Below, in pieces: positions 1-34,077 of a DNA stretch of 35,733 nucleotides. How positions within the stretch are numbered: the first letter of the stretch is position 1; every line of letters begins with the position of its first letter. The notes under the pieces are model-generated. The model did not search any database, was not told where the DNA came from, and saw nothing but the letters and a program-made list of their open reading frames with translations. The DNA comes from Alphaproteobacteria bacterium (lineage in GTDB: Bacteria; Pseudomonadota; Alphaproteobacteria; UBA828): the NCBI GenBank assembly GCA_016869195.1, contig VGET01000008.1, positions 1 to 35,733 on the forward strand. Direction: 5' to 3'. Made by a program: the position numbers and the translations under genes.

Positions 1-1283
1 GGCATCGCGGCGATCAGCCCGTCGCGCCCGGCCTGTTTCAAGAGCTCCGCCGCCTCGATCGACTCGGCACTCTCAGGCAGCCAGCTGCCCCGCGGAAAAT
101 TCAGGCTGAGCGTCGCGCTGTGAACGGCAAGCGCGATCAGTGGCGCGGCCGAGAGTACGAGCACTGTTTTTGGTCTGCGCACCACGAACTCGGCCCAGCG
201 CCGCCACCAGCGGCCCTCGCCTTGGCGTCGTTTCAAGAATGGCAGACGAAAGCGATCGACCCAGGGCCCCACGATCGCGAGCAATGCGGGAACGAGAGTC
301 GTTGCCACGAGCACGGCGACCACCGAGGCGAGCAGACCGCCAAGCGCCACCGAGCGCATTTCGGTAATCGGCATGACCAGCATGGCGGCAAAGCCGACCG
401 CGACCGCGAGGCCCGAGGTCGCAACCGTCGCGCCTGAGCCCTGAATGGCAAGCTTCGCCGCCTCCACGCGGTCGGCGCCCGCCCGAATCGTGTCGCGATA
501 GCGGCTCACCATCAGCAGCGCATAGTCGATGCTAAGGCCAAGCCCGATCATGGTGACGACATTGATCAGCAGCACCGAGATCGGCATCACCGCGGTCAGC
601 AGCACGGCGATGCCAAGTGCGATCGGCAGCGTGATCACGCCCGAGAGCACGGGCAGGCCGGCGGCGATGAGCCCGCCAAAAACCAGGAGCAACAGCGCAA
701 AGGTGAGCGGCACGACGCGCATCTCGGCGGTGCGTGCCTCGTCTGTGCCGACGACGCGCAGGTCGATGTTGAGCGCGTCAGGCCCGGTCCAGAGCAGCCC
801 GGCCTCCTTGTGGCTGGAGCGCAAGCTCGGCAACAGGGCGGTGGTCCGCCCCCTGAGGGCCGGAATCAGGGTATCGACCGGAATCGTGTTGGGGTCGATG
901 CCGACCAGCACGATCCCGACCGCACCGGCCGCGAAAAACGGGTCGGGCGAGTCGAGATAGGAGGCGACGGCGACAACGTCCGGTTCCTCTCGCACGGCGC
1001 CAACAATGGTTTCGAGCGCCGCGCGCCCCTCGGCAGATTCAGGTGCCGGCAGGCCGGAGGTGATGAGAACGGCGGTGTCGGCGAAGGGCGATTGGAACTT
1101 GTGCTCGAGCAGGTCGGCGACGCGCGCCGATTCGCTGCCTTCGATGCGGGCGGCCGACTGGAGCTTTGATTCGATCTGGGCCGAGAACGGAATCAGGCAG
1201 GCGAGAATGACGACCCAGAGCCCGATCACCACCCAGCGATGGTCGATGACCGTGCGCGCAAAGCGCCCGCCGGGCCCGGCCAT
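1..1283 (-). CDS. MMPL/RND family transporter, partial (3' end outside window)
   Basis: Not in the ORF track because it has no stop in the window. Reverse strand from ATG at 1283 reads MAGPGGRFARTVIDHRWVVIGLWVVILACLIPFSAQIESKLQ... and stays open to base 1, with RND/MMPL-type segments (ITLPIALGIAVLLTAVMPISVLLINVVTMIGLGLSIDYALLMVSRYRD). Confidence 0.9.
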   Translation of the reverse strand, partial: MAGPGGRFARTVIDHRWVVIGLWVVILACLIPFSAQIESKLQSAARIEGSESARVADLLEHKFQSPFADTAVLITSGLPAPESAEGRAALETIVGAVREEPDVVAVASYLDSPDPFFAAGAVGIVLVGIDPNTIPVDTLIPALRGRTTALLPSLRSSHKEAGLLWTGPDALNIDLRVVGTDEARTAEMRVVPLTFALLLLVFGGLIAAGLPVLSGVITLPIALGIAVLLTAVMPISVLLINVVTMIGLGLSIDYALLMVSRYRDTIRAGADRVEAAKLAIQGSGATVATSGLAVAVGFAAMLVMPITEMRSVALGGLLASVVAVLVATTLVPALLAIVGPWVDRFRLPFLKRRQGEGRWWRRWAEFVVRRPKTVLVLSAAPLIALAVHSATLSLNFPRGSWLPESAESIEAAELLKQAGRDGLIAAM

Positions 1284-1298
1284 CAAACGGGCTTAGGC

Positions 1299-2795
1299 TC
1301 AGCTCGCGACAAGCGCGACCCGGGCCGGGCGTTCGACCAGCTGGCGGCCCTCGAGCCGGCGGATGAACTCCTGGATGATCCGGCGATAGAGCTCGTCCTT
1401 GAGGACGCGGTCTTCATAGCCGGTGTCGATGCTCGGATTGTCGTTGACCTCGATGACGTAGAGGCCGTTCGCGGTTTCCTTGATGTCGACGCCGTAGAAG
1501 CCGTCGCCGATCAGATTGGCCACGCGCACGGCGAGCTGAACCACGGCCTGCGGCGCCTCGTGCACCGCGAAGGTGGTGGCGCTGCCTTCCTCGAAGCGGC
1601 CGTCATCGCCGTGTTTCACGATCTGCCAGTGGCCGCGCGACATCATGTACTGGCAGACATAGAGTGGCTCGCCGCGCAGCACGCCGACACGCCAGTCGAA
1701 CGCGGTGTAAAGGTACTGCTGCGCGAGGATGACGTCCGACTCTTTCAGCAGGAGTCCCGCGCGCAATAACAATTGCTCGCGATTCTCGACCTTGACCACG
1801 CCACGCGAGAACGAGCCATCCGGAATCTTGAGCACCGCGGGGTAGCCGATCTCGCGCTCGACCGATTCGACCGTGCCCCGGTCGATGATGAGCGTGCGCG
1901 GGATCGGCACGCGGTTCGCCTTGCACAGCTCGGCCAGATACACCTTGTTGCAGCAGCGCAGGATCGAGGTCGGATCGTCGATCACCGGCATGCCTTCTGA
2001 CTCGGCCTTTCGGGCGAAGCGGAAGGTGTGGTGATCGATCGCCGTGGTGGCGCGAATGAAGAGCGCGTCATATTCCGCGAGTTCGGCATAATCCTTGCGC
2101 TCGATCAGCTCGACCTTGACGCCCATCTGCTCGCCGACCCGGATGAACTTCTGCAGCGTCCGGGGCGAGGACGGCGGCATGCTCTCGCTCGGATCGTGGA
2201 GCATGGCGAGGGTGTATTTCGGCACCACGGTCGTTTTCGGGATGCGCCAGGTGGCGCGCGTGTAGTCGTCGAGCGCCGCGCGGAAGCGATCCTGCTGCTC
2301 CAGGCTGAGCTCGCCGAAGGAAAGCGGGCGGATGCGCGCGATGTGCCAGCGCCCCTCGGCGGAAACCTCGACCCGGAGAATCGGGCAGCGAAACCGGTCG
2401 AACACCTTGCGGGCGAACTCACCGAAGCGATCGTCGTCCGGCCGCCCGAAATAGACATCGAGGGCGAAGCGCGAGAGCGTCGGCGCCTCGATCTTCTTCA
2501 TGCGCTGGCGCAGCGCCTCGTCGAGCTCGGGCAGCGCGTGGCGGTAGATCGAGCGGTCGCGCAGCTCAAGGAGCGTGCGCACCGAGGGGATCACCTTCAG
2601 CTTCCGCGCCTCGGCCAGGAGCGAACAATAATAGCCATAGCCCAAATAGCTATAATCCGCGCACAGGTTCACCACCTTGTCGCGGCGAGGCTGGAACTGC
2701 TCTGGCTTGGTGATGAAGTCGCGATCGCGAATCGCGGTCCAGTTTCGGTAGGAGATGGGCAGCTGAATCTTGCGGTCGATGACAACGACGTGCAT
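1299..2795 (-). CDS. RimK-like ATP-grasp ligase with RLAN-type N-terminal domain
   Basis: 498 aa; N-terminus MHVVVIDRKIQLPISYRNWTAIRDRDFI plus ATP-grasp segments (YPAVLKIPDGSFSRGVVKV, ...DWRVGVLRGEPLYVCQYMM, GLYVIEVNDNPSIDTGYED). Confidence 0.88.
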   Translation of the reverse strand: MHVVVIDRKIQLPISYRNWTAIRDRDFITKPEQFQPRRDKVVNLCADYSYLGYGYYCSLLAEARKLKVIPSVRTLLELRDRSIYRHALPELDEALRQRMKKIEAPTLSRFALDVYFGRPDDDRFGEFARKVFDRFRCPILRVEVSAEGRWHIARIRPLSFGELSLEQQDRFRAALDDYTRATWRIPKTTVVPKYTLAMLHDPSESMPPSSPRTLQKFIRVGEQMGVKVELIERKDYAELAEYDALFIRATTAIDHHTFRFARKAESEGMPVIDDPTSILRCCNKVYLAELCKANRVPIPRTLIIDRGTVESVEREIGYPAVLKIPDGSFSRGVVKVENREQLLLRAGLLLKESDVILAQQYLYTAFDWRVGVLRGEPLYVCQYMMSRGHWQIVKHGDDGRFEEGSATTFAVHEAPQAVVQLAVRVANLIGDGFYGVDIKETANGLYVIEVNDNPSIDTGYEDRVLKDELYRRIIQEFIRRLEGRQLVERPARVALVAS

Positions 2796-2806
2796 GGCAC
2801 CCCGTG

Positions 2807-3388
2807 TTATGGGCTGGCGAGGCGCGGCTTGCGTGCCTCGAGTGCGTCGCGGCCTGGCAGCCGTCGGCGCGACGTGAGCGGAGACTTGGCGGGCGAGCGG
2901 GCGCGGCCGGCGCGAGTCACCGGGGCGCCGCCCTTCCCTGGATTGACGGCGCCGAGGGCCTTCTCCATGCGGAGCGCGTCGGCATGGTCCTCGTAGTAGT
3001 CGGCGACCGTTTCGATTTCGTGAAAACCGGCCGCCCGATACATCCGGAGCGCCGCTTCGTTGTCTGGCCGCACCTCGAGCCGAAGGCGCGTCAGGTTACG
3101 GCCGAGTGCCTCGCGCTCACAGGCGTCGAGCAGCGCCCGACCGATGCCATTGCCGCGCTCTCGGGGTAAAACGGCGAAGGAATAGAGGCGCGCGATCGGC
3201 ACCCGCGCGCGAAACAGGAGAAGCGCATAGCCGCCGATCTGGCCGCCCTCCTCATGGACCAGACAGCTGACCTTGCCCTTGGTCAACAAATGGTGAAAGT
3301 TCCGACGCGTCAGCCGATCGGCCGCGAAGGAGTCATCCTCGATGCGGCGAAGGGCCGGGATGTCGCTAACGCATGCGGCGCGGATCAT
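2807..3388 (-). CDS. GNAT family N-acetyltransferase
   Basis: From internal Met MIRAACVSDIPALRRIEDDSFAADRLTRRNF; acetyl-CoA loop VLPRERGNGIGRALLDACE; LRLEVRPDNEAALRMYRAAGF. Basic Arg/Pro/Ser-rich C-terminal tail. ORF track start (3493) is probably too long. Confidence 0.88.
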   Translation of the reverse strand: MIRAACVSDIPALRRIEDDSFAADRLTRRNFHHLLTKGKVSCLVHEEGGQIGGYALLLFRARVPIARLYSFAVLPRERGNGIGRALLDACEREALGRNLTRLRLEVRPDNEAALRMYRAAGFHEIETVADYYEDHADALRMEKALGAVNPGKGGAPVTRAGRARSPAKSPLTSRRRLPGRDALEARKPRLASP

Positions 3389-3504: not shown

Positions 3505-4722
3505 ATGTCAGGCATGCTTTCCGGCATCAGGGTGGTCGAGAGCTCGGCGTTCGTGGCGGCGCCGGTGTGCGGCATGACGCTGGCCCAGCTCGGCGCCGAC
3601 GTCATCCGCTTCGATCCCATCGGCGGCGGGGTCGATGCCAATCGCTGGCCGGTCACCGCCAAGGGCGAGAGCCTCTATTGGGCCGGGCTCAACAAGGGCA
3701 AGCGCTCACTTGCCGTAAACCTGGCGGACCCGCGTGGGCGCGAGCTCGTGGCCGCGCTGATCGCGGCGCCCGGGCCGAACGCCGGCTTCTACCTGACCAA
3801 TCTGCCGGTGCGCGACGGGCTCGACTACGAAACGCTCAAGGCCAAGCGCGCCGACGTGATCATGCTCTTGATCCAAGGCAACCCTGACGGCAGCACGGCG
3901 GTCGATTACACGGTCAATGCCGCGGTGGGATTTCCCTTCGTCACCGGCCCTGAATCCGCGATCGGCCCGGTCAACAACGTGCTGCCGGCCTGGGATCTCA
4001 CCTGCGGGCTGCACGCCGCGATCGGGCTCCTCACCGCCGATCGTCACCGCCGTCTCACAGGCGAGGGTCAGCAGATCACGCTCAGCCTGTTCAATGTCGG
4101 GGCGGCGCTCACCGCGGCGCTTGGCTACACCGCCGAGGCCGAGATCAACGGCACCGATCGCGAGCGCCTCGGCAACTCGATCTACGGCACCTTCGGGCGC
4201 GATTTCCCGACCAGCGATGGCCGGCGGATCATGGTGCCGATCGTGACCGCGCGCCAGATGATGGACCTGGCCAAGGCGACCGGGCAGGAAGGCCAGATGA
4301 AGGCCCTCGAAGCCTCACGCGGCCTCGATCTCAGAAAGGACGGCGATCGCTGGTCGGCGCGAGAGGCCCTGGCCGCGCTGTTCGAGCCCTGGTTCGCGGC
4401 CCGGCCTTATAACGAGATCGCCGGCGTGCTCGCTCGCGCCGGCATTCTGTTCGGGCCCTATCAGCGCTTCACCGAGCTGGTGCGCGACGATACGAGGTTC
4501 ACCACCGCCAATAAGATGATCGCGGAGATTGAGCAGCCGGGTGTCGGTCGCTACCGGGTGCCGGGCTCGCCGCTCGATTTCGGCGCGAGCCCGAGGCTGC
4601 CGCCGGCGCCGGCGCCCCGGCTCGGCCAGCATACCGATGAGATCCTCTCGAGCGTGCTCGGCCTCGATTCAGGCGCGATCGGCCGGCTGCACGATGCCGG
4701 CGTGGTGGCCGGGCCGAAGTGA
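3505..4722 (+). CDS. CaiB/BaiF family III CoA-transferase, possibly 2-methylfumaryl-CoA isomerase-like
   Basis: 405 aa; MLSGIRVVESSAFVAAPVCGMTLAQLGADVIRFDP and YWAGLNKGKRSLAVNLADPRGRELV are typical of family III CoA-transferases. Substrate assignment is weak. Confidence 0.85.
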   Translation: MSGMLSGIRVVESSAFVAAPVCGMTLAQLGADVIRFDPIGGGVDANRWPVTAKGESLYWAGLNKGKRSLAVNLADPRGRELVAALIAAPGPNAGFYLTNLPVRDGLDYETLKAKRADVIMLLIQGNPDGSTAVDYTVNAAVGFPFVTGPESAIGPVNNVLPAWDLTCGLHAAIGLLTADRHRRLTGEGQQITLSLFNVGAALTAALGYTAEAEINGTDRERLGNSIYGTFGRDFPTSDGRRIMVPIVTARQMMDLAKATGQEGQMKALEASRGLDLRKDGDRWSAREALAALFEPWFAARPYNEIAGVLARAGILFGPYQRFTELVRDDTRFTTANKMIAEIEQPGVGRYRVPGSPLDFGASPRLPPAPAPRLGQHTDEILSSVLGLDSGAIGRLHDAGVVAGPK

Positions 4723-7238: not shown

Positions 7239-8285
7239 TCAGCGCCGCAACATGAACCAGCGCCGGCCCTCGACCACCTGCCAGGCGACCAGGCCCGGCA
7301 GGCCGAGCGCCAGCTCGCGCACGCGCTTGATCAGCGAAAGCGCGAGCGCGGTCTCGGGCGACAAACCGATCGCGGTGCCGAGCAGCACATAGCCGCCCTC
7401 CTGCACGCCAAGCGAGCCCGGCACCAGAAAGGCGGCCGAGCGCACGGCCTGGCCCAGCGCCTCGATCATCAAGGCATCCAAAAGGCTCACGTCGTGGCCC
7501 ATGAAATGCAGCGCGAGCAGCACCTCGCCGGTGCCGATGAGCCAGGACACAAGCTGGAAGCCGATGCTGCGGAGAATGGCGCGTCGATGGCGATAGACCT
7601 TGGCCACCATCGCATCGAGCTCGCCGGCGCCGCCAACCAGCGCCAGCCATTCGCGGCCCCTGGTCAGCGCCTTGACGAAGCGAGCAATCAGGCTGAACAG
7701 GCCGATGCGCTGCGCCAAATAGAAGACGGCGACGCTCGCGAGGATGATTCCCGCGCCGATCGCGGCGTGAACGGTCGCATCGCCGTTCCGGCCGTATTGC
7801 AGAATGAGGATGACCACGCCGATCACGGCGAAAATCGCTTGGGTGAGGATTCCAAGCGTCAGGTTCACGACCACCGACGCGCCCGCCTGCAGCGCCGGCA
7901 CGCGGGCGATCACCAGGAGTCGCGTCTTGATGAACTCGCCGCCAATCTGGGCGACGGGCAACAATTGATTGATCGCCTCGGTGATCCACTGGATGCCGAA
8001 GAGCCTCGCATGGCTCGGCCGCTGCTCGCGCGGAATGACGGCGCCGAGGCCGGCGGCGTCGAGCCCAACCGGAATAAGATGAAACAGCGTGACCGCGGCG
8101 ATGCCCCAGCCGGCGCGGCCGATCGCATTGGCGATCTCGCCAACATCCTGAAACACAAAGAGCCCGGCCATGAGGCCGAAGCCGAGCAGCAGGAAAAGCA
8201 GGGTCCAGAGCCGGCTGAGCGTCACGCGCCGACGGCCCCTCCCGGGCAAGGCTGCCGGTGATTCAGTGCGGTCGGCGTCGTCCAT
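7239..8285 (-). CDS. hpnL: HpnL-like lysylphosphatidylglycerol synthase-type membrane protein
   Basis: 348 aa multi-TM; FLVPGSLGVQEGGYVLLGTAIGLSPETALALSLIKRVRELALGLPGLVAWQ resembles HpnL; adjacent to an HpnI-like gene. Confidence 0.75.
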   Translation of the reverse strand: MDDADRTESPAALPGRGRRRVTLSRLWTLLFLLLGFGLMAGLFVFQDVGEIANAIGRAGWGIAAVTLFHLIPVGLDAAGLGAVIPREQRPSHARLFGIQWITEAINQLLPVAQIGGEFIKTRLLVIARVPALQAGASVVVNLTLGILTQAIFAVIGVVILILQYGRNGDATVHAAIGAGIILASVAVFYLAQRIGLFSLIARFVKALTRGREWLALVGGAGELDAMVAKVYRHRRAILRSIGFQLVSWLIGTGEVLLALHFMGHDVSLLDALMIEALGQAVRSAAFLVPGSLGVQEGGYVLLGTAIGLSPETALALSLIKRVRELALGLPGLVAWQVVEGRRWFMLRR

Positions 8286-8344
8286 GGTGGTCGGGGCGGG
8301 AGGCTCTCAGGGTCGGTGCCGGGGCCCGGTGAACGCCGAGCCGG

Positions 8345-9490
8345 CTAGTCGAGCGCCATCATCTGCCCGCTCGGCTTGAGCGTAAAGCGGTGGCCGCGCC
8401 AGAGAATACCTTTGCCGCCCAGGCTCGCGAGCCGAACCGCCATGGTGATCAGGTCCCGATAGGGAATGAGCCAGGGGCGATAGGGTGCATCGCCGCCGAA
8501 GCGCCAGCTCACCACGCTGTGATGCAACACGCGCAGGATGCCGGCCGCGAGGAAGAGAAGGCCCGCCTCTGCGGCAAGCGCGCTCGCCACGAATGCGATT
8601 AACGACAATGGCAGCGCATCGGTGATCAGCGTCAAGGGGTAGAGCAGCGGGCGTACCGCACGCAATGTGCGCGCCCAGCGCAGCTCGTGACGGAACAGTG
8701 TGGCGAGATCGGCCTCGCACACGACATTGTCGATCATCGTGGGGGCGATCGCGATGTCATGGCCCGCCTGTTTCACCAGCTCGCCCAACATGTAGTCGTC
8801 GGCGACATGGTCCTTGAGCGCGTCGAGCCCGCCGACCTTGTCCAGAACGTCGCGTCGAATCGCCATGGTCTGGCCGAAGCACGGCTTGAGCCCGCCGATG
8901 GTCGAGGCGAGCACGACCGAGGACATGTACCAGTCGTTCAGGTAGAGCGCGCCCAGCGATGAGGCGCGGCCCTCTCCTACGGTGCCGCGATAGAGGCAGG
9001 TCACCGCACCTACGGACTTGAGCTCAAACGCGGTGGCGACCGCTCGCAAGTAATCCGGTGCCACCCGCGTGTCGCTGTCGGCCATGATGATCAGGCTGTG
9101 CTTGGCAATGCCGATCATGTTGGCGAGGTTCGAGACCTTGTAATTGCGGCCGATCACCCGACCGTCGATCACCAGCGCGAGGTCGCGCTCGGGCATCTCG
9201 GCGATCAAGCGGCGTACCACAGCGATCGCCGGGTCGCCCGCCTCGCGCACGCCAAAGACCACCTGAAAATTTGGGTAATCCTGGGTGCAGTAGCTTTTCA
9301 GATTGTCATAGAGGTGCGGCTCATCGCCGCACAGCGGCTTCAGCACGCTGATCGGCGGCAGAACTGCTGGTGCGCGCGCGCCGCGGGGCCGGCCCTTCAG
9401 CGCCACGACGATCGTCATCATGGTGAGATAGAGGAGGCCGAGGGCGGCGATCCCCATCAACACGGCTGTGGTAATCTGGTGTTCGGTCAT
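8345..9490 (-). CDS. hpnI: HpnI-like hopanoid-associated glycosyltransferase (ceramide glucosyltransferase-like, GT2)
   Basis: PPISVLKPLCGDEPHLYDNLKSYCTQDYPNFQVVFGV, DSDTRVAPDYL, GLKPCFGQTMAIRRDVLDKVGGL; start at MTEHQITT (9490). Confidence 0.82.
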   Translation of the reverse strand: MTEHQITTAVLMGIAALGLLYLTMMTIVVALKGRPRGARAPAVLPPISVLKPLCGDEPHLYDNLKSYCTQDYPNFQVVFGVREAGDPAIAVVRRLIAEMPERDLALVIDGRVIGRNYKVSNLANMIGIAKHSLIIMADSDTRVAPDYLRAVATAFELKSVGAVTCLYRGTVGEGRASSLGALYLNDWYMSSVVLASTIGGLKPCFGQTMAIRRDVLDKVGGLDALKDHVADDYMLGELVKQAGHDIAIAPTMIDNVVCEADLATLFRHELRWARTLRAVRPLLYPLTLITDALPLSLIAFVASALAAEAGLLFLAAGILRVLHHSVVSWRFGGDAPYRPWLIPYRDLITMAVRLASLGGKGILWRGHRFTLKPSGQMMALD

Positions 9491-9712
9491 CCGGGGGCAC
9501 CCCTGCGTCCCCAAGGGGCGGAGTCTGCACGGGATAGGTTACGCCGACTGTGCCTTGAACGTATCAATCCGTTGCGCCGGTCGGGAACGCGCCGAACCGA
9601 GCCTTTGAGCATCAACGCATCCGCCGGGACTTGAGCGTTGCCCGACGCTGAGCTAAGGCTTGCAACGAAACTCGCAGAAAACCTGCAAAACGCAAGGGGG
9701 AGTATAGGCGGA

Positions 9713-27775: not shown

Positions 27776-28168
27776 ATGACGAAGAACAGTCTTTGGCTCC
27801 AAGCTGCGCTGATTGCGTCCGGCCTTGTGATCGGAGGCGCCGGCAATGCCGCGGCCGACGGGCTCGTCGGCGATCCGGTGAAGGGCCAGGAGGTCTATGA
27901 GCGCTGCGAGGGCTGTCACTCGCTCGACGCCAATCGCGTCGGCCCGAAGCATCGCGGGCGCATCGGACGCAAGGCCGGAGGCGTTGAAGACTACGATTAT
28001 TCCGACGCGCTGAAATCCTCCGGCATCGTGTGGGACGAGGTGACGCTCGATCGCTGGCTGCAGGGGCCGGGCAAGCTCGTGCCCGGCACCAAGATGGGCT
28101 TCATCCTGAAGGATCCGAAAGCCCGTGCCGATGTCATCGCCTTCCTCAAGCGGGAAAGCGCCAAATAG
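27776..28168 (+). CDS. Class I c-type cytochrome, exported
   Basis: Signal peptide, single CEGCH heme motif, GPKHRGRIGRKAG, distal GTKMGF methionine. Confidence 0.92.
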   Translation: MTKNSLWLQAALIASGLVIGGAGNAAADGLVGDPVKGQEVYERCEGCHSLDANRVGPKHRGRIGRKAGGVEDYDYSDALKSSGIVWDEVTLDRWLQGPGKLVPGTKMGFILKDPKARADVIAFLKRESAK

Positions 28169-28173
28169 GGGTG

Positions 28174-28821
28174 ATGGCGACGGTGAGCGAGACCGAGCCG
28201 GCGGTGGTCGCCGATCATCTCCTCGGCTATGCTGCTGCGAAACCCGCCGCAGGCCTGCGCCCCGTGTCTTCGTCCAAGGTATCGCTCGATCTGGCTGATC
28301 TGCTGCGCCGCGTCGCGACCGGCGATGACGATGCGTTCGAGGCGCTCTATCGGGCGGCCTCACCGACGCTCTTGGGGCAGATCATCCGCAAGGTCGGCGC
28401 GCGCGATGTGGCCGAGGAGCTGCTTCAGGAATCCTTCGTCCTCATCTGGCGCCATGCCGAGCGCTATGACCCAGCGCTCGGCTCCGCGCTCGGCTGGATG
28501 GGCACCATTGCGCGCAATGCCGCGATCGATCGGCTACGCAGCCAGCGGCGCGAGGCACCGCGGACCGAGTTGCCGGACAACCCGGAAGAGCTTGACCGCA
28601 TTGCCGAACTCGCCGCGGACCCGCTGCGACTGGACGATACGCGGGCGATCCTCACCTGCCTCGAGGCGCTCGATGAGACTCCAAGACGCGCGGTTGTGCT
28701 ATCATTTTGCTACGGCTACACCCATGACGAGCTGGCTGAGGCGCTTGGCCTGCCGCTCGGCACGGTGAAAAGCGCGATCCGCCGCGCACTGCCACGGTTA
28801 AGGGCCTGCCTCGAGCCATGA
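28174..28821 (+). CDS. ECF-type sigma-70 family RNA polymerase sigma factor
   Basis: AFEALYRAASPTLLGQIIRKVG...VAEELLQESFVLIWRHAERYDPALGSALGWMGTIARNAAIDRLRSQRRE; region 4 CYGYTHDELAEALGLPLGTVKSAIRRAL. Confidence 0.93.
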   Translation: MATVSETEPAVVADHLLGYAAAKPAAGLRPVSSSKVSLDLADLLRRVATGDDDAFEALYRAASPTLLGQIIRKVGARDVAEELLQESFVLIWRHAERYDPALGSALGWMGTIARNAAIDRLRSQRREAPRTELPDNPEELDRIAELAADPLRLDDTRAILTCLEALDETPRRAVVLSFCYGYTHDELAEALGLPLGTVKSAIRRALPRLRACLEP

Positions 28822-29369
28822 CGGAACGCGAAGACCTCGACCACATCGCCGCCGAATATGTGCTCGGCCTCACCGGCGGCCTTCACTGCGAGCGCATCGA
28901 GGCGCGCCTGAAGTCCGAGCCGGCATTGGCCGAGCGTGTGAACTTCTGGCGCCTTCACTTGGCCCCGCTCGATGGCGCGGCGACGCCCGCCATGCCCTCA
29001 GCCGATACCTGGACGCGTCTCAAGGCGCGCATCGCGGCGGAGCCGAAACCGGGCGAGCATGGGCCGATAACGATTCGGGAGGCCGAGGGCGCGTGGGAGC
29101 AGCACTCGCCCGGCGTGCAGATCAAGCTCCTCAACGTCGATGCGGCGAGCGGCGCACGCTCCTATCTGCTCAAGATAGACCCGGGCAGCGAGGTGCGGGC
29201 CCATGAGCATCTGGTCGATGAAGAGTGCTACATGATCTCGGGCGAGGCGATGATCGGCGACCTGCATTTGCGCGCCGGCGACTATCATCTCATCCCGCGC
29301 CATCTCAGGCACCCGATCACGCGCTCGGAGAAGGGCGCGCTCGTGTTCGTGCGCGGCAAGGTCGCCTGA
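28818..29369 (+). CDS. Anti-sigma factor with ChrR-like cupin domain
   Basis: ATGA overlap with sigma gene; RskA-like N-terminus (DHIAAEYVLGLTGG...ERVNFWRLHLAPLDG) and cupin YLLKIDPGSEVRAHEHLVDEECYMISGEAMIGDLHLRAGDYHLIPRHLRHP. Confidence 0.85.
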   Translation: MTEREDLDHIAAEYVLGLTGGLHCERIEARLKSEPALAERVNFWRLHLAPLDGAATPAMPSADTWTRLKARIAAEPKPGEHGPITIREAEGAWEQHSPGVQIKLLNVDAASGARSYLLKIDPGSEVRAHEHLVDEECYMISGEAMIGDLHLRAGDYHLIPRHLRHPITRSEKGALVFVRGKVA

Positions 29370-33591: not shown

Positions 33592-34077
33592 TCAGCAAAT
33601 GACCTTTTCCAACATCTCCACATAGGGCTCGAAGCCGAAGCGGCGATAGGCCCGGCGCGCTTCATTGTTGGCTGAGAGCACCTCGATGCGAAGCCGCGCC
33701 ATGCCGCGTTCTCGGGCAAAGGCCTCGGCCCGATCGAGCAGCATTTGAGCGATCCCTCTTCCGCGCTGCGCCTGCGCCACGCAGATATCGGAGACCAGCA
33801 CGAAGGTCGCGGAGTCGGCGGTCTCTTCCGGCCCCTCATAGTGATCAATCAAAAAGGCGACGAAGCCGACGACGCCGCCCTCGAGCTCCGCGACCCAGAG
33901 CTCGCCCCCGCTGGCGGTGAGATGGCGCTCGAGATAGGCAAGATACGCCTCCGCGATCTGTGCGCCCGGCAACAGGCCGTCATGCAGACGTCGCTCGTGC
34001 TCCTGCAGCTCGATGATCAGGGTGAGGAGCGCCGGGCGATCGCGCGCTTCGCTCGGCCTGAGGACGGACTCGGCCAA
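33592..34077 (-). CDS. GNAT family N-acetyltransferase
   Basis: 161 aa; ICVAQAQRGRGIAQMLLDRAEAFARERGMARLRIEVLSANNEARRAYRRFGFEPY. Confidence 0.92.
   Translation of the reverse strand: MAESVLRPSEARDRPALLTLIIELQEHERRLHDGLLPGAQIAEAYLAYLERHLTASGGELWVAELEGGVVGFVAFLIDHYEGPEETADSATFVLVSDICVAQAQRGRGIAQMLLDRAEAFARERGMARLRIEVLSANNEARRAYRRFGFEPYVEMLEKVIC

Follow-up and report, generated by a model that had tools for sequence, protein, structure and literature searches.

Organization of the locus

The window analyzed here, a stretch of 35,733 nucleotides, is the start of one contig (C8) in the 395-contig assembly of the source species (G000). Its first three genes, all on the minus strand, encode a GNAT-family acetyltransferase, a predicted RLAN-domain RimK-like ATP-grasp amide ligase and the N-terminal part of an MMPL transporter (Table 1). 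Open reading frame calls and Pfam matches bore out both the identity of this trio and the tight spacing given in an earlier sequence-only reading, with gaps of 11 nt (positions 2796-2806) between the first two genes and 15 nt (positions 1284-1298) between the second and third. Because the genes share a strand and are separated by such short gaps, they are likely to be co-transcribed in the source species. The window holds only the N-terminal 427 aa of the MMPL protein, which scored 145.8 bits against a Pfam gathering score of 20.5; the remainder was located on a contig of 4,958 bases (C237; L118:1-1155) that overlaps C8 by 227 bp at 98% identity. On C237 the transporter gene is followed by SnoaL-like, methyltransferase-like and MTHFR-like genes (the first two labels being readings of the sequence, with no family search behind them).

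Table 1. Coordinates and supporting matches of features in the window
Feature	Position	Strand	Evidence and remarks
MMPL transporter, N-terminal part	1..1283 (ATG 1283 or TTG 1286)	-	Pfam MMPL 2e-42; cut short at base 1, where the contig ends
RLAN-domain RimK-like ATP-grasp amide ligase (predicted), 498 aa	1299..2795	-	Pfam RLAN 2.7e-45, RimK 1.4e-7
GNAT acetyltransferase, 194 aa	2807..3391 (start about 3391, stop 2807)	-	Pfam Acetyltransf_1 3.8e-19
Non-homologous tail of the GNAT	2807..2947	-	GC 0.76; about 680 bp of DUF3335 coding sequence here in the genus orthologues
CoA-transferase related to 2-methylfumaryl-CoA isomerase	3505-4722	+	509 bits (cut-off 725); divergent from the GNAT; position kept in the genus
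HpnL-like and HpnI-like genes	7239-9514	-	332 bits (cut-off 196) and 401 bits (cut-off 310); syntenic in both genus-mates
Sigma-70-family factor, then ChrR-type cupin protein	28030-29369	+	Possibly an ECF sigma/anti-sigma pair
Second, weak RimI-model match	33592-34077	-	42.8 bits

The acetyltransferase and the ligase

The acetyltransferase carries the acetyl-CoA loop R-G-N-G-I-G and a YYEDHADALRMEK motif, and its identity to the L117/L116 proteins is 64-71% over residues 3-146/157. Compared with the rimI model (TIGR01575) it scored about 82 bits (82.0-82.8), just under the cut-off of 86.4, and was the best match to this model in the source genome, in which no protein passed the cut-off. In a structure model of a GNAT-DUF3335 fusion (pLDDT 90), the GNAT half matched ARD1 (4pv6) with a TM score of 0.92 and RimI (2cnm) with 0.87; the enzyme thus models as an ARD1/RimI-type N-alpha-acetyltransferase. 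GNATs of this fold acetylate small molecules as well.

In the ligase, the RLAN domain (residues 25-173) is followed by the RimK domain (residues 292-458), and in its ATP-grasp portion the model of the protein (pLDDT 84) matches RimK-RpsF (5zk6), LysX/ArgX and Ddl. Residues K284, K323, D437, E449 and N451 were invariant among 54 RLAN homologues; from knowledge of the fold, we take them to be the ATP-grasp lysines and acidic metal ligands. The ligase is 91-92% identical within the genus, compared with 62-84% for neighbouring genes. Its pN/pS ratio was 0.06 between the two genus-mates and 0.11-0.12 between these and the window; the corresponding values for the GNAT were 0.24 and 0.29-0.34. By these ratios both genes are still under purifying selection, if slightly less strongly where the window is one of the sequences compared.

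The two enzymes might be taken for a second RimI and RimK that modify ribosomal proteins, as the GNAT is the genome's best match to the RimI model (82.8 bits) and the fold of the ligase matches that of RimK in complex with RpsF. This is unlikely, however, since a RimB-like protease and a full-scoring RimK already lie side by side on another contig (G000:C76:5462-6796; L194, L196), so that the RLAN ligase is not the RimK of the source genome. In addition, the RLAN protein scored 83 bits with the RimK model TIGR00768, under the curated cut-off of 143.4, and the module is patchy: RLAN was found in 81 of the 398 genomes sampled from the phylum (completeness at least 90%), and none of the 18 further family members searched beyond the genus has the module.

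Conservation of the GNAT-RLAN module

Regarding the 80 close homologues of the ligase, mostly from Alphaproteobacteria, a GNAT gene adjoined RLAN in 79, the exception (L042) being a locus cut by a contig end. Across 40 phylum-wide loci, a GNAT lay within 3 kb of RLAN in 38, either co-directional or on the opposite strand. The RLAN (PF14401) system was reportedly described by Iyer et al. in 2009; no substrate, product or activity for any RLAN enzyme was found in the searchable literature. The suggestion that RLAN-ATP-grasp and GNAT together form a conserved, uncharacterized amidoligase system was therefore upheld for the two enzymes; the exporter included in that suggestion was not (see below). 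Genes downstream of RLAN vary between relatives (PAD_porph, RsmJ, peptidase M74, DUF155, Gcw_chp, GATase, NMT1-like and DAO), and no third gene was common to the neighbourhoods examined, so that a conserved third member of the module was rejected. An RLAN-type ligase was also seen on a Pseudomonas aeruginosa plasmid (L120, 5797-7386), with no GNAT annotated alongside.

The GNAT of the module is normally fused to DUF3335, a papain-fold, C39-like peptidase domain that the sequence-only reading had missed. Both same-genus genomes (G001 and G002) carry GNAT-DUF3335 together with RLAN; the domain was found neither in the window GNAT nor anywhere in the whole source assembly. In a blastn comparison with L116, homology ended at position 2948 and picked up again at 2795, a GC-rich, unrelated stretch of about 150 bp taking the place of about 680 bp of DUF3335 coding sequence. 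With tblastn, 44 of the 80 close homologues had DUF3335 after the GNAT and the other 36 gave no match, and the domain is therefore usual and not obligatory. Of 63 upstream proteins scanned with Pfam, 37 carried the domain, and at 26 of the 40 phylum-wide loci it lay within 3 kb of RLAN. Among the 398 phylum genomes, 62 had DUF3335 (61 together with RLAN, one alone) and 20 had RLAN alone, from which it follows that DUF3335 depends on RLAN more than the reverse; the p value for co-occurrence (Fisher test, 5e-53) is only indicative, because the genomes are related. Neither partner is strictly required beside the ligase, since DUF3335 was missing from 20 of the 81 RLAN genomes and an adjacent GNAT from two of the 40 phylum-wide loci and from the Pseudomonas plasmid.

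Regarding the 25 full-length fusions, the Q, C and H of DUF3335 were invariant in all, and the fourth position was D in 23 and E in two; by analogy with the C39/papain pattern, these four are the presumed catalytic residues. In a rapidly built tree of 55 RLAN proteins, with DUF3335 labels from tblastn that could miscount a very divergent domain (e.g., in the 357-aa L031 protein), presence of the domain switched at least 13 times, 11 of the switches being forced by well-supported branches and one falling inside the genus.

The MMPL transporter

From the arrangement in the window, the sequence-only reading had proposed a biosynthesis-and-export operon, in which the GNAT and the RLAN ligase make an N-acylated, amino-acid-ligated small molecule and the MMPL protein exports the product. 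MMPL proteins export lipids and peptides, and the shared strand and short gaps that make co-transcription likely in the source species also agree with such an operon, but the neighbourhoods of relatives do not: no MMPL or RND gene was adjacent to RLAN at any of the 120 loci surveyed (flanks of up to 10 kb, shorter where contigs end), the MMPL gene is missing from both same-genus genomes, which carry the module, and among plasmids its best matches are in Actinobacteria. An export operon is hence quite unlikely; a lack of conserved linkage to MMPL genes among relatives, as seen here, is an outcome that the sequence-only reading itself had named as refuting it.

By tblastn, none of the 80 close-homologue loci contained a match to the window MMPL. 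Profile matches to MMPL/RND occurred at three of these 80 loci and five of the 40 phylum-wide loci, the nearest being about 2.2-2.3 kb off, mostly to open frames of AcrB size. At a threshold of 1e-12, the other 288 of the 289 sampled genomes of the class yielded no further match. The flanking genes close up in G002, in which the SnoaL-like, methyltransferase-like and MTHFR-like genes that follow the MMPL gene in the source genome stand directly after RLAN. Matches in a plasmid collection came mostly from Streptomyces and Rhodococcus, with a best identity of 31.7-31.9%. Judged by these best plasmid-borne relatives and by the sampled class genomes, the transporter would be of an actinobacterial type. 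The gene most likely reached its position by an insertion specific to this lineage, for which horizontal transfer is the simplest account, and is probably co-transcribed with the module without being a part of the conserved unit.

Two other candidates were rejected. In G001, a different RND gene of 790 aa (L116, 7932-10304, minus strand) has HAE3 as its best match and is convergent with RLAN, the 3' ends overlapping, and for these reasons it is no counterpart of the MMPL gene. The HpnN hopanoid transporter had been suggested by the nearby hpnI and hpnL genes; the window part of the MMPL protein scored 49.3 against a cut-off of 751.85 and 27.9 against 1100. HpnI is the bacteriohopanetetrol glucosamine glycosyltransferase.

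Proposed function

The preferred reading, with a probability of about 0.6, is that the GNAT and the RLAN-ATP-grasp ligase constitute a two-enzyme cytoplasmic system for the modification of peptide or protein termini, laid out on the RimI/RimK plan but separate from the ribosomal enzymes, and that in this lineage DUF3335 was lost and an MMPL gene inserted. The ligase, being RimK/LysX-like, would activate a carboxylate with ATP as an acyl-phosphate and then add an amino acid, the RLAN domain presumably helping to choose the substrate. The GNAT would acetylate an alpha-amino group on that molecule. The papain-like peptidase fused to the GNAT in most relatives may cut the conjugate or a precursor, which would render the modification reversible or processed. 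The source species has lost the peptidase domain, recently on this reading, with the GNAT and the ligase kept under purifying selection and the foreign MMPL gene most likely inserted just downstream of RLAN. Taken together, fold matches and conserved linkage suggest that one molecule is both acetylated and joined to an amino acid, and in most relatives also cleaved. The domain content, the conserved linkage, the loss of DUF3335, the restriction of the transporter to this lineage and the intact catalytic positions are observed; the reaction steps are inferred.

A different product, a capped dipeptide serving as compatible solute, would result if the GNAT placed the cap and the ATP-grasp enzyme joined two amino acids. 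The synthetase of N-acetylglutaminylglutamine amide (NAGGN) likewise combines a GNAT with an ATP-grasp domain, and the window GNAT touches the model TIGR03103 weakly (2.9e-4). Such an osmolyte is doubtful, however, given that this match scores 19.5 bits where the cut-off is 569, that the ligase resembles RimK/LysX, and that the papain-like peptidase is without a counterpart in NAGGN synthesis. As no other gene is common to the neighbourhoods, there is also no linked amidotransferase or M42 peptidase.

It is highly improbable that the lineage exchanged one clearing route for another, i.e., that it lost the peptidase cutting an acetylated conjugate and gained an MMPL pump transcribed together with the module, which would have turned a reversible internal modification into an exported metabolite.

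The survey defines the unit to be studied as GNAT plus RLAN, usually with DUF3335, and excludes the exporter from it as a general component. Pairs with and without the peptidase within one genus offer a natural comparison of products. About a fifth of the sampled phylum genomes carry RLAN, an enzyme for which the searchable literature yielded no substrate.

Comparison with known systems

The ligase shares the ATP-grasp fold of RimK, which glutamylates RpsF in a reaction reversed by RimB (PMC4741518, PMC11957791), and most RLAN relatives likewise pair the ligase with a peptidase; in contrast to RimB, that peptidase is papain-like and not a retropepsin, and an RLAN domain and a GNAT are additional. 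The rlo operon (RloA-RloB-RloC; PMC12239564) also links an ATP-grasp protein genetically to a peptidase, whereas the sole RimB/RloA-type protease (PF05618) of the source genome adjoins rimK on C76 and the RLAN ligase is accompanied by a GNAT instead; RloB (PF14400), an inactive-transglutaminase membrane protein, had no match in the source genome or in any control genome. With the RimI/ARD1 N-alpha-acetyltransferases, the GNAT has in common the fold and the YY...A..M motif, and differs from them in falling just under the rimI cut-off, in its linkage to an amide ligase and in its usual fusion to a peptidase. The transporter is about 31% identical to Rhodococcus MMPL copies over most of its length, but lies far under the curated cut-offs for MmpL3 and actII, and its host is alphaproteobacterial.

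The fusion of GNAT with DUF3335 (PF11814) has been noted before (PMC10318531). Compared with the RLAN-RimK plus GNAT-DUF3335 systems, the locus in the window has the same ligase architecture, the same GNAT and the same adjacency, and differs in lacking the DUF3335 domain and in the MMPL gene directly after the ligase. The GNAT-RLAN module is thus not new in kind, and the source species, its ligase 91-92% identical to the same-genus orthologues, carries a variant that lacks the peptidase and is followed by a foreign transporter gene.
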